From: a virus | Strand: one strand, 5' to 3' | Length of the DNA stretch: 46,755 bases | IMG/VR virus record: IMGVR_UViG_3300032278_004247 | Location: 1-46,755 of that record | Shown: positions 11,722-15,219 of the stretch, piece by piece | Layout of the letters: every line of letters begins with the position of its first letter | Position numbering within the stretch: position 1 is the first letter of the stretch | Translations under genes and position numbers: made by a program | Notes under the pieces: model-generated | Database searches by the model: none | Seen by the model: the letters and a program-made list of their open reading frames with translations, nothing else | Told to the model about the DNA's origin: nothing

Positions 11722-12243
11722 TCAAGTGTCATCATTTCGGGCTTGCCGAATCATATTTTCTAGCATTTCCGCCTGGTTTGGCGGCAAACGGAACCACTCT
11801 CCGGCCTCTCGAAACGCCTTAAACTGCCGGTGGAGCCTGGCCTCGTACCCAGTTCCGCCAGGGGCGGTGCCGATTACGACGACACCTTGGGGCACCATAT
11901 TGGCGATCTCCTTCATTCGCCTATCTAAGTTTGTTGTTGCCCCAATCTTATAAAGAGGGGCATTTTTAATTTTTGCGACGTAGACGAGAGTCTCAGCGTG
12001 ATGCAGCCTACCCCTGTCATTCTCGGTGCGCGCCTGCCTATAGTTGAAGAAAATGGCCTCTTTTAGCGCTGTTTCGAGCCATACCACGTTCTCCACGCCA
12101 TGATTCCGAAGCGCGCCAGCTATCACGCTTACTTCGGCGACCGTGTCGGCCAGCTCGCCTTCGTCGTTTAAGGCCGCCCTATATAGAATGCCAAGCTCGC
12201 TGATGAGTGACGCCAAGCAGCCCTTGTCAGTGCCTGTAGCCAT
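11722..12243 (-). CDS. MUG113/T5orf172-type GIY-YIG protein coupled to the antirepressor
   Basis: This 173-aa protein has a C-terminal GIY-YIG-superfamily domain of the MUG113/T5orf172 type. The tract ETLVYVAKIKNAPLYKIGAT is the YV..YKIG core, followed by NLDRRMKEIANMVPQGV and the Glu-bearing region GYEARLHRQFKAFREAGEWF. The N-terminal 95 residues are helical and not recognised. The ATG at 12243 shares one base with the antirepressor stop (TAATG), indicating coupled translation; an upstream in-frame start would lie inside that gene. Such domains often occur fused to phage KilA-N/Bro/antirepressor proteins; here it is a separate but coupled partner. DNA cleavage is plausible but not shown. Confidence 0.75.
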   Translation of the reverse strand: MATGTDKGCLASLISELGILYRAALNDEGELADTVAEVSVIAGALRNHGVENVVWLETALKEAIFFNYRQARTENDRGRLHHAETLVYVAKIKNAPLYKIGATTNLDRRMKEIANMVPQGVVVIGTAPGGTGYEARLHRQFKAFREAGEWFRLPPNQAEMLENMIRQARNDDT

Positions 12244-13202
12244 TAGCTTGCCCTCCGCTGCACCTGTAGGGCGCCACCGGCCGTCCGGTGCACATCCTCG
12301 GCAACACGCAGCAGGCGGTTCCGCGAGGCCTCCAGGTGGTGCTGCAAGGCGTCCATTTCGATAAAGCACGCTTCGACGTCATGACCGGCCGCCCGGAGCT
12401 TGCCGAGGACGTGCCGTGTCGGCGAGTCCGCGCCGCCGGCCATGCTCACCGCCGCCGCCGGGATAGACAGGCGGTTCCGGCCAACCTGCGCCTGGGCCAG
12501 GGTCGGATTGTTTGCCAGCCAGCGCTTCACCGGGTAGCTGTATTCGTCGTTCCGGTCAGCCGGAAGCCACTCCCCTTCCAGGGTGTACGCCGCGACGAAG
12601 TTCCGGGCGCTGTCCATCTGACCAGCAGGGATGTCCTCGGCGCTGACGACGCTGAACGCCTTGTGAATCTGCGACCAGATGTGTCCTTTCGCCCGGCGCC
12701 GCATCGGCGCGGGCAGGTGGCGCACTTTGCCGTCCAGCACCGCCGCGAGGCAGTGGAAGCCATCGGTGCCGATTGTCTGGTTCAGGATGGTGCCAAAATC
12801 AGGGTTCGTCCGGTGGTTCGCCGCGTGCCCTTCATTCCAGTATTGCCAAAGCACATCGTCGCATTCCGACTGATAGGCCATGACTTGCTCTCGGATCGAC
12901 TCGCGCACCTTGCCGGCGTTGATGCTCATCAGCCAGCCGGGCAGCTTGCGGAGAGGCATGCAAATCATCGAATAGCGCTTGCCGTCTGCGCCAGTTGTGG
13001 TGATTTCCACCACGACTGAACTGAGTCGGCCACCCTTGATCTTGGCGTACTGGCTTTTCCAGTCCATCCCCATGCCCGTGACCACTGGCCGCATCGGCAC
13101 ATAAGGCTCGTCCAGGTGATCCACCAGCAAAAGCTGGTTGCCACGGAACGGCACCACCTGGGCACCTTGCTGCGATTTATTTTGCGGTATAATATTGTCC
13201 AT
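12243..13202 (-). CDS. ant: P22 Ant-like antirepressor
   Basis: This 319-aa protein carries the phage antirepressor N-terminal domain (P22_AR_N). Visible motifs include VPFRGNQLLLVDHLDEPYVP, MRPVVTGMGMDWKSQYAKIK and SMICMPLRKLPGWLMSINAG, then REQVMAYQSECDDVLWQYWN. The C-terminal half is helical and variable. Ant-type proteins bind and inactivate phage repressors, triggering induction of resident or incoming prophages. The start at 13202 is chosen because GAGGTAAC lies 6 nt upstream and the antirepressor domain starts soon after; the longer frame (to 13322) would run back through a hairpin and the preceding gene. It follows the Arc-like gene, as in P22 immI. Confidence 0.88.
   Translation of the reverse strand: MDNIIPQNKSQQGAQVVPFRGNQLLLVDHLDEPYVPMRPVVTGMGMDWKSQYAKIKGGRLSSVVVEITTTGADGKRYSMICMPLRKLPGWLMSINAGKVRESIREQVMAYQSECDDVLWQYWNEGHAANHRTNPDFGTILNQTIGTDGFHCLAAVLDGKVRHLPAPMRRRAKGHIWSQIHKAFSVVSAEDIPAGQMDSARNFVAAYTLEGEWLPADRNDEYSYPVKRWLANNPTLAQAQVGRNRLSIPAAAVSMAGGADSPTRHVLGKLRAAGHDVEACFIEMDALQHHLEASRNRLLRVAEDVHRTAGGALQVQRRAS
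13167..13193 (+). promoter_or_regulatory. Antisense promoter inside the start of ant (Psar-like)
   Basis: A consensus -10 hexamer TATAAT (13188-13193) has TTGCTG (13167-13172) 15 nt upstream, or CTTGCT with a 16-nt spacer. It points rightward, against ant. A start about 7 nt downstream falls at 13200, opposite the ant start codon. Confidence 0.65.
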
Positions 13203-13270
13203 ACCAGTTACCTCAGCTTTGTTACTGGAACCTGAAGCCCTCGGTGCGCCAACACCGGGGGCTTCTTCAT
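13200..13270 (+). ncRNA. Putative sar-like antisense RNA against ant
   Basis: A transcript from the TATAAT promoter would begin near 13200. It would be complementary to the ant start codon and its Shine-Dalgarno (gttacctc at 13207-13214) and reach the hairpin at 13234-13265, followed by ttcatttg. The predicted length is about 70 nt. Phage P22 makes a 68-69 nt sar RNA from the same place, the arc-ant intercistronic region, which blocks ant translation. The sequence shows the promoter, complementarity and hairpin. Transcription itself is inferred. Confidence 0.6.
13234..13265 (+). terminator. Large hairpin between the Arc-like gene and ant
   Basis: gaagccctcggtg (13234-13246) pairs with caccgggggcttc (13253-13265) around a 6-nt loop. 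On the plus-strand RNA all 13 pairs form with one G-U; on the minus-strand RNA the same position is an A-C mismatch. It is thus better suited to plus transcripts and may end the antisense RNA, though the following T-run is short. It begins directly after the Arc-like stop codon and could also attenuate minus transcription into ant. Confidence 0.6.
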
Positions 13271-13455
13271 TTGTGGCCAGCTTGGCCTGGGATCGTGTTC
13301 CCATTCTCCTTCCTCCATTCAATACCCTGGTCGATCAAAAGCCCTACCTCGGCGGCGAAGCTGCGCCGGCTGGCCTGCGCCCAGTCCGCGATTCTGTCTA
13401 CCAGCTCCGCCTCAAGGCGCAGGCTGCAAGGCTTCTTCTTAGGTGTGCGACCCAT
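13267..13455 (-). CDS. Arc-like ribbon-helix-helix repressor
   Basis: This 62-aa protein has the ribbon-helix-helix layout: a basic arm MGRTPKKKP, a beta strand CSLRLEAEL, helix A VDRIADWAQASRR and helix B SFAAEVGLLIDQGIEW. The S-x-x-x-E pattern at the helix B start is like Arc (SVNSEI). Such proteins bind DNA as dimers of dimers. The ATG at 13455 is preferred over an upstream codon because GGAGG precedes it by 6 nt. It is the first gene of the leftward transcript that continues to ant, as arc precedes ant in P22, and is expected to repress its own promoter and the divergent one. Confidence 0.82.
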   Translation of the reverse strand: MGRTPKKKPCSLRLEAELVDRIADWAQASRRSFAAEVGLLIDQGIEWRKENGNTIPGQAGHK

Positions 13456-13484
13456 CGTGGCCTCCTTCAGTGAATGTAGGACCA

Positions 13485-13513
13485 ATGCTAGTACCGCATT
13501 TGCGGCACGTCAA
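13485..13513 (-). promoter_or_regulatory. Promoter of the arc-like/ant transcript with operator in the spacer
   Basis: On the minus strand, TTGACG (13513-13508), a 17-nt spacer and TAGCAT (13490-13485) form a good sigma-70 promoter. The spacer contains the palindrome CCGCAtttGCGG (13494-13505), here written on the plus strand. Arc operators in P22 likewise sit between the -35 and -10 of Pant. Confidence 0.75.
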
Positions 13514-13526
13514 TACTTTTAATCCA

Positions 13527-13545
13527 CGGTGCACCAATCGCACCG
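13527..13545. promoter_or_regulatory. Inverted repeat operator candidate between the divergent promoters
   Basis: CGGTGC (13527-13532) and GCACCG (13540-13545) form a perfect inverted repeat with a 7-nt spacer. It lies just upstream of the rightward -35, between the two promoters, where a Mnt-like protein would act. The 8-mer accgcatt also occurs twice in this region (13493-13500 and 13542-13549). Confidence 0.5.
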
Positions 13546-13547
13546 CA

Positions 13548-13576
13548 TTGACGCGCGATGAAGTAATGTAAATACT
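13548..13576 (+). promoter_or_regulatory. Promoter of the Mnt-like gene
   Basis: TTGACG (13548-13553), a 17-nt spacer and AATACT (13571-13576) place a start near 13583. That is about ten bases before the AGGAG ribosome site of the gene at 13606. Confidence 0.6.
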
Positions 13577-13605
13577 TGCCGCCACAGAGCATCAGGAGTT
13601 CCAAG

Positions 13606-14097
13606 ATGGCCAAGAACCGGCAAGGCAGTTCCGCAACCTCGACCATCAACATCTCAATGCGGATCGACCCGAAAACGAAGTACCTCATTGATCTGCTGGC
13701 GAGGGACCAGAAGCGAACCCTCACAGGCGTGGTGGAGTGGGCTATTGAGGTCGCCGCTGCCCGCGAGCGCTTCCATAACACCGACAACAATTACGATGGG
13801 CCGTCATTCCTAGATATGCTCGACGCCTTATGGTCCACCGATGAGGCGATCCGTTTGGTGGCTCTGGCGATTCACAAGCCGTCGCTGCTCGATTATCACG
13901 AGCTGCGCATCTGGGAGACGCTGAAGGCCTCCCCATCTTTCTGGAACATCAAGAATCCGCACACCACCTCCAACCTTCAGATGGACCATCTGAATCTCGG
14001 GATGCTGCAGTGCAACTGGGATGACTTTCTCGAGCATGTAAACCAGAACCGCGCGAAGCCGGCCATCGAGGGGTACTATCCCGAAGTGCCCTTTTAG
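13606..14097 (+). CDS. Mnt-like ribbon-helix-helix protein with long C-terminal domain
   Basis: This 163-aa protein has an N-terminal ribbon-helix-helix segment: a strand STINISMRIDPKTKYLIDLL followed by RDQKRTLTGVVEWAIEVAAA. The remaining ~110 residues (from ERFHNTDNNYDGPSFLDMLD) are not recognised; Mnt has a short C-terminal tetramerisation helix, so this tail is unusually long. The start at 13606 has AGGAG 8 nt upstream; the upstream ATG in frame lacks one. It is divergent from the Arc-like gene across a 150-bp operator region, exactly the mnt/arc relation of P22. It is probably the lysogenic repressor of the antirepressor operon. Confidence 0.7.
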   Translation: MAKNRQGSSATSTINISMRIDPKTKYLIDLLARDQKRTLTGVVEWAIEVAAARERFHNTDNNYDGPSFLDMLDALWSTDEAIRLVALAIHKPSLLDYHELRIWETLKASPSFWNIKNPHTTSNLQMDHLNLGMLQCNWDDFLEHVNQNRAKPAIEGYYPEVPF

Positions 14098-14115
14098 CGA
14101 AAGCCCGACATAAAA

Positions 14116-14136
14116 AACCCCGCCGGAGCGGGGTTT
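14116..14136 (+). terminator. Bidirectional terminator between the Mnt-like gene and the lipoprotein operon
   Basis: AACCCCGC (14116-14123), loop cgga, GCGGGGTT (14128-14135). It ends in ttt for plus transcripts and has aaaaaa (14112-14117) for minus ones. It serves two convergent units. Confidence 0.8.
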
Positions 14137-14138
14137 GG

Positions 14139-14282
14139 TTAGTGGGTGGAGCCGGGCGGGCCAGAATCGCCGTCGTCGTCATCCTGCTTGGGCCGCAAGC
14201 CCTCCATGATCAGACCCTCTAGTGGCGTCTCATCGGCGCTCGCGATCTGGGTTTCGCCAGCATTGTTCAGATGCACCGTCAT
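14139..14282 (-). CDS. Small hypothetical protein of the lipoprotein cassette
   Basis: This 47-aa open frame starts MTVHLNNAGETQIASADETP and ends with an acidic, flexible tail (KQDDDDGDSGPPGSTH). Its ATG at 14282 overlaps the stop of the lipoprotein gene upstream (ATGA), and its stop abuts the terminator, so it fits as the last gene of the cassette. No motif is recognised. Evidence is coupling and position only. Confidence 0.5.
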   Translation of the reverse strand: MTVHLNNAGETQIASADETPLEGLIMEGLRPKQDDDDGDSGPPGSTH

Positions 14283-14695: not shown

Positions 14696-15219
14696 TGCTC
14701 CGATCCTTTTGGGGCAACCCTGAAGTGATCGCGCTCTTGGTGGGCCGTATGGACCACGTAGACATCCACGGGCTCGTTGGTGATGGGCTGCTCGAGGGGA
14801 ACGATAGTCGTTGTCCACCACATCTTCAGGGAACTGGAGCTGGGGACGTTGGGCACGCTGTCGGTGCCCTCCTTGCGGGTGACCTCTTCGCCGCCGCGCT
14901 TGACCACGATTTCCAGCCACTTTCCTTTCGCTGAATCCAGGGAATAGGCGTCAAGGCGAACCACGAAATACCCGCCAGGCCACGGAATTTCGTCAGCCTC
15001 TTTCATGGCCAATTCAGCCTCTTTGCGCTCCCGCTCTTCCAGCATTGAGGGGGTGACGTATTCCAGCGTGACCCGCCCCATGTACGAGCTTTTCTCGACG
15101 TGCTCAATGGGGTAGCCATTGCCCTCGTTCGTCGGAATCCCCATCATCTTGTCCATGTTCGCGCAGCCGGACAAAGCCAGGGTCAGCGCCAGCGCCATGG
15201 ATGCCATTTTTATTGTCAT
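14692..15219 (-). CDS. Putative lipoprotein (prophage accessory gene)
   Basis: This 175-aa protein begins MTIKMASMALALTLALSGC, a clear lipoprotein signal with lipobox LSGC. The mature protein is charged and has the helical region SMLEERERKEAELAMKEADE and the C-terminal strand VDVYVVHTAHQERDHFRVAP. The ATG at 15219 is preferred to that at 15225 because AAGGGA then lies 6 nt upstream. It is the first gene of a three-gene leftward cassette lying between the tape measure and downstream tail genes. The family is unknown. A perfect CRP-type palindrome lies upstream, suggesting expression in the lysogen independent of the late promoter. Confidence 0.7.
   Translation of the reverse strand: MTIKMASMALALTLALSGCANMDKMMGIPTNEGNGYPIEHVEKSSYMGRVTLEYVTPSMLEERERKEAELAMKEADEIPWPGGYFVVRLDAYSLDSAKGKWLEIVVKRGGEEVTRKEGTDSVPNVPSSSSLKMWWTTTIVPLEQPITNEPVDVYVVHTAHQERDHFRVAPKGSEQ

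Follow-up and report, generated by a model that had tools for sequence, protein, structure and literature searches.

A predicted sar-type antisense RNA over the antirepressor start of a phage genome, and sar-like RNAs before unrelated antirepressors

Very probably, the start of the antirepressor gene (ant) in the virus studied here is overlain by a divergent homologue of the sar RNA of phage P22. The window is the whole 46,755-nucleotide stretch of DNA that was analysed (IMG/VR record IMGVR_UViG_3300032278_004247). We hold it highly likely that the phage makes an RNA of about 70 nt over the ant start, and that this sar homologue pairs with the arc-ant mRNA and blocks synthesis of Ant. The element was characterised by its sequence, position, homology, structure, covariation and strand-specific conservation. 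Sar is a textbook antisense RNA. In P22 it pairs with the ant mRNA, blocks translation and is needed for proper lysogeny (PMC12197685; immI summary PMC11016777). It is known in P22 and epsilon34 (PMC2629481), and a phage small-RNA review of 2025 gives it for P22 only (PMC12197685). A literature search, with subscription journals mostly outside its scope, found no paper on sar outside P22-like phages. The window copy is a new, divergent sar, those of P22 and epsilon34 being already known, and relatives of sar are widespread in other phages.

An arc-ant locus with a sar-type element

The genes and predicted signals of the locus are as follows.

12243..13202, minus strand: ant, antirepressor and target gene (P22_AR_N, E 2.8e-45; PHROG anti-repressor Ant, E 4.4e-61)
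13202-13200, minus strand: ant start codon
13214-13210, minus strand: ant Shine-Dalgarno sequence, GAGGT
13267..13455, minus strand: upstream of ant, arc-like gene for a ribbon-helix-helix repressor (PHROG Arc-like repressor, E 8e-4)
13485..13513, minus strand: weak candidate for the arc-ant promoter, TTGACG-17-TAGCAT (consensus scan, 9/12)
13606..14097, plus strand: divergent gene, corresponding to P22 mnt by position only
13188..13193, plus strand: TATAAT, putative antisense -10 box inside ant codons 4-5 (direct reading; relatives)
13201..13271, plus strand: predicted sar-type antisense RNA of about 70 nt, with its ends placed to within 1-3 nt (RF00262 match and fold)
13204..13228, plus strand: predicted 5' stem-loop, with the anti-Shine-Dalgarno ACCUC (13210-13214) at and in the loop (fold; relatives)
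13234..13265, plus strand: predicted 3' terminator hairpin of 13 bp (scan, fold, covariation in relatives)
13266..13272, plus strand: interrupted U-tract TTCATTT, overlapping the arc stop codon (direct reading; scan)

The product of the arc-like gene had no match in Pfam or the PDB. That of the divergent gene matched no Pfam or PHROG family and no PDB entry, and by eye its N-terminus has a ribbon-helix-helix look. Between the two genes, positions 13485-13576 hold promoter-like sites back to back, an inverted repeat GCACGTCAAT/ATTGACGCGC (90% complementary) and the pair CGGTGC/GCACCG; these repeats are candidates for operators bound by the products of these two genes. Directly downstream of ant, a minus-strand gene (11722-12243) encodes a T5orf172/MUG113 (GIY-YIG-like) domain.

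The initial annotation had proposed a sar-like antisense RNA at this place, and its structural description stood up throughout. The perfect TATAAT opposite ant lies on the plus strand at 13188-13193, and transcription starting 7-8 nt past this hexamer would begin within the ant ATG (at A13201), over the initiation codon as had been claimed. The claimed complementarity to the ant ribosome site is that of plus-strand ACCUC (13210-13214) to the Shine-Dalgarno GAGGT (13214-13210). The 13-bp hairpin at 13234-13265, found at the distance originally given, has nine G-C pairs and a 6-nt loop and is followed by TTCATTTG, which would place the 3' end near 13269-13272 and make the RNA about 70 nt long. 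As annotated, the stem pairs fully only in the plus-strand RNA (13/13 pairs), whose U-G pair does not form in the minus-strand RNA, where one pair is lost to C-A. The RNA from 13201 to 13271 folds at -31.6 kcal/mol (z -5.9; 0/200 shuffles as good). Sequence prediction thus gives it the length (about 68-70 nt) and the intrinsic terminator at the end of arc that are typical of sar. A weak point of this terminator is the break in its U-tract. Among 21 other Shine-Dalgarno-supported gene starts in the window, none had such a hairpin or -10 box in the corresponding place; this control placed ant at an upstream in-frame ATG and leaves the start at 13202 uncounted. That ATG, at 13304 on the minus strand, has a good Shine-Dalgarno sequence and lies inside arc, 34 codons upstream of the ant start, so that an N-extended Ant is possible.

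Relation to P22 sar

A search with the Rfam model of sar (RF00262) matched the window at 13203-13269 on the plus strand, over model positions 1-68 of 68, with 27.4 bits (E 0.0061 in 1.4 kb searched with all 4227 families; 0.0013 in 300 bases). The match starts at the base adjoining the ant ATG (13202) on its 5' side, and its other end falls on the arc stop codon (13267-13269). The score falls short of the curated gathering cut-off of 43 bits, and we therefore regard the element as a sar homologue on the evidence, not as a formal RF00262 hit. A related phage, L006, is about 96% identical to the window over shared stretches and identical in the sar region; its RF00262 match has E 4.6e-5 over the whole 45-kb record, in a single-family search.

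The gap between the window and P22 is closed by intermediates. Two IMG/VR relatives, L042 and L025, whose Ant proteins are about 60% identical to that of the window, score 46.6 and 44.8 bits, above the cut-off, and Pseudomonas phage UFJF_PfDIW6 (L002) has a sar-like match of 37.4 bits. The terminator stem GAAGCCCU...GGGGCUUC is common to the window, P22 and the intermediate phages. The interpretation in the initial annotation was largely right, but on one point it was too cautious: similarity to sar, described there as not evident, extends from end to end of the model and into this shared stem.

In P22 (NC_002371), sar occupies 15021-15090, between the end of arc at 15022 and the start of ant at 15091. 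The sar-like reading agrees with it in position, strand, size, two-stem-loop structure and gene neighbourhood, including an anti-Shine-Dalgarno in the 5' loop and, as target, an antirepressor of the P22 type that follows an Arc-like gene. The window differs from P22 in scoring below the Rfam cut-off, in a 5' stem of unrelated sequence, and in its -10 box, which is a perfect TATAAT without a preceding TGn, lying three bases further into ant, whereas P22 has an extended TGC-TATACT. DNA-level searches of phage records, with the locus and likewise with the 24-kb stretch 15000-39000, returned no match, and the nearest named relative was therefore taken from a protein search. By Ant protein this is UFJF_PfDIW6 (53.5%), which has arc, the sar-like match (unannotated in its record) and ant in the same order as the window, but a TATTAT with TGn and a different 5' stem. 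The window element also matched the His leader, with 21.3 bits against a gathering score of 49; this match reflected the shared GC-rich terminator stem and was rejected.

Strand-specific conservation among Ant loci

Relatives of Ant were gathered from viral and genome collections, yielding 100 distinct start regions of ant. Of these, 81 have a strong hairpin with its distal end 57-71 nt upstream of the gene, and in 77 of the 81 it is stabler as antisense than as sense RNA, by a median difference of 5.9 kcal/mol. In 38 representatives, 97.4% of the stem cells pair (79.9% when shuffled), 11 of the 13 stem pairs show two-sided changes, and covariation reaches 0.611 against 0.258 in shuffles. One of two adjacent stem positions is U-G in 34/38, where the sense RNA would have an A-C mismatch; this is direct evidence on which strand functions.

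The same observations bear on whether the hairpin acts instead in the arc-ant mRNA, as an attenuator or a translational-coupling element. The sense hairpin does still fold, with its one C-A mismatch, and the ant frame is open across sar in 27/38 representatives, compared with 13 and 7 for the other two frames. A sense-strand role would nevertheless leave the conserved G-U pairs as A-C mismatches, give no U-tract, and run against the greater antisense stability in nearly all loci; we find it barely credible.

Representative RNAs are predicted to fold into a 5' stem-loop presenting the anti-Shine-Dalgarno and then the terminator. The arms of the 5' stem differ by group: UGUUGGU/ACUGACA in P22, GACGUUG/CGACGUU and UGUGGAUGU/UGUUCACAC elsewhere, while those of the window are CCAGUUAC/GUUACUGG and contain one mismatch. 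The 5' stem scored 12.5 on average, versus 8.4 in shuffles, although these were simple shuffles of related sequences and the comparison is indicative only. MAFFT with RNAalifold did not recover the 5' stem, and in a fixed-column count on a further alignment its helix paired in 62.5% of cells. The value is low because the two arms are displaced from group to group by at least one alignment column, and the 5' stem was therefore judged sequence by sequence. The data are indicative of an anti-Shine-Dalgarno stem-loop that persists while the sequence of its stem changes. Overall, the comparison shows which parts are constrained, namely the terminator stem, the anti-Shine-Dalgarno loop and the -10 box, with the 5' stem drifting.

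The antisense promoter

The TATAAT within ant is predicted to be the -10 box of a sigma-70 antisense promoter inside the start of the gene. Taken alone it is not striking: the hexamer coincides with encoded Ile-Ile codons, and shuffling among synonymous codons reproduces a perfect TATAAT with P 0.15. Most of the evidence that the window has a promoter here therefore comes from the relatives. Among the 81 hairpin loci, 80 have a TATAAT-like antisense hexamer within ant codons 2-5, and in 75 of those 80 it is preceded by TGn, as an extended -10. The string is read as ATA GCA in P22-type ant genes and, in another frame, as AAT AGC ACA in the Pseudomonas-phage type. With both reading frame and encoded residues differing between groups, it is the DNA signal itself that is conserved.

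These comparisons also weigh on two further explanations. According to the first, the element descends from sar but its promoter has decayed in the window, and there is little or no synthesis of the RNA. The window promoter does have no TTGACA-like -35 at 16-18 nt (only TTGCTG, at 15-nt spacing) and no TGn, unlike the 75 relatives, and its Rfam score is well under the cut-off. Yet the -10 hexamer is the perfect TATAAT, neither stem-loop is disrupted and both fold strongly, and the sar region is unchanged in L006, so that we regard a relic as very unlikely.

The second explanation treats the hairpin as a mere terminator that stops stray antisense transcription before arc, with no dedicated small RNA and without ant as a regulated target. 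The hairpin is indeed terminator-like on the plus strand, and with the neighbouring tail genes also on the minus strand, antisense read-through is conceivable. This leaves unexplained both the conservation of an antisense -10 box in shifting reading frames and the conserved 5' stem-loop with its fixed geometry of 57-71 nt, and we consider it very unlikely.

Proposed mechanism

For the favoured sar homologue, we reason by analogy with P22 that the RNA would be transcribed in the window phage, block translation and affect lysogeny. Transcription from the plus-strand promoter in the first ant codons would begin over the ant start codon and stop at the 13234-13265 hairpin, giving an RNA of about 70 nt folded into the 5' stem-loop that presents the anti-Shine-Dalgarno and the 3' terminator stem-loop. 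By pairing with the arc-ant mRNA over the ribosome-binding site of ant, this RNA would block Ant synthesis while arc is still translated; with Ant synthesis blocked, Ant would not inactivate the prophage repressor. At times of strong firing of the arc-ant promoter, for example just after infection, convergent transcription would lower the amount of the RNA. By keeping Ant low the RNA would, as in P22, favour lysogeny.

Sar-like RNAs before other antirepressors

Across 369 Gammaproteobacterial genomes, RF00262 gave three hits, two of which are real arc-sar loci: in L184 (Xenorhabdus) sar lies at 1501-1569 before a KilA-N antirepressor, and in L185 at 1501-1565 before an AntA antirepressor. The third, in L186, was a chance hairpin in a coding region. 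Viral relatives with a sar-like RNA were found for both families (L196, L199 and L201 for KilA-N; L223, L236, L272 and L277 for AntA). In all the KilA-N and AntA sar loci the hairpin lies 3-24 nt beyond the end of a short gene, which was Arc-like wherever this was checked, and most of the loci have an antisense -10-like sequence in the first codons of the antirepressor gene.

Sar-like RNAs thus lie between an arc-like gene and unrelated antirepressors, which makes arc-sar look like an interchangeable control cassette. We consider it likely that sar extends beyond P22-like phages as a transferable cassette in which sar accompanies an arc-like gene, and that this cassette has been combined with no fewer than three unrelated families of antirepressor (P22_AR_N, KilA-N and AntA), each time with an antisense promoter in the first codons of the new gene. 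The cassette is of specialist interest for these unrelated partners, suggesting that phages exchange the antirepressor yet keep the RNA switch. The collected set forms a diverse family with real covariation and offers a basis for a better model. In L231, a sar-like hairpin (2397-2428) precedes an AntA-type gene; the gene upstream is not arc-like and by eye resembles another antirepressor-type protein.

Other leaders at sar-less ant loci

In L052, and more weakly in L096, an ant gene that lacks sar has a sense leader matching C4 and isrK. C4 (P1/P7, RF01695) is also an antisense RNA that controls antirepressor synthesis, but unlike sar it lies in the ant leader, on the same strand as ant. C4 precedes genes of the same Ant family in L052 and, at a score under the cut-off, in L096, and within 12800-14200 of the window the C4 fold had no match at E up to 5. 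In L003 and L012 (3859-3944 in both), the orphan sRNA-Xcc1 (RF02221, 69 bits) lies directly upstream of ant on the sense strand, and it may be a C4-like regulator of antirepressors. These loci suggest that where ant lacks sar, its place can be taken by a different RNA, C4 or perhaps sRNA-Xcc1. A recurrent leader without a match in Rfam is present about 110 bases upstream of sar-less ant in L013, L014, L015, L094, L097 and L099, for example as AACCTTTCAGGATGA...GCAGGGTTCATCACTAAAAGGAA in L013, L094, L097 and L099, and is possibly another structured RNA.
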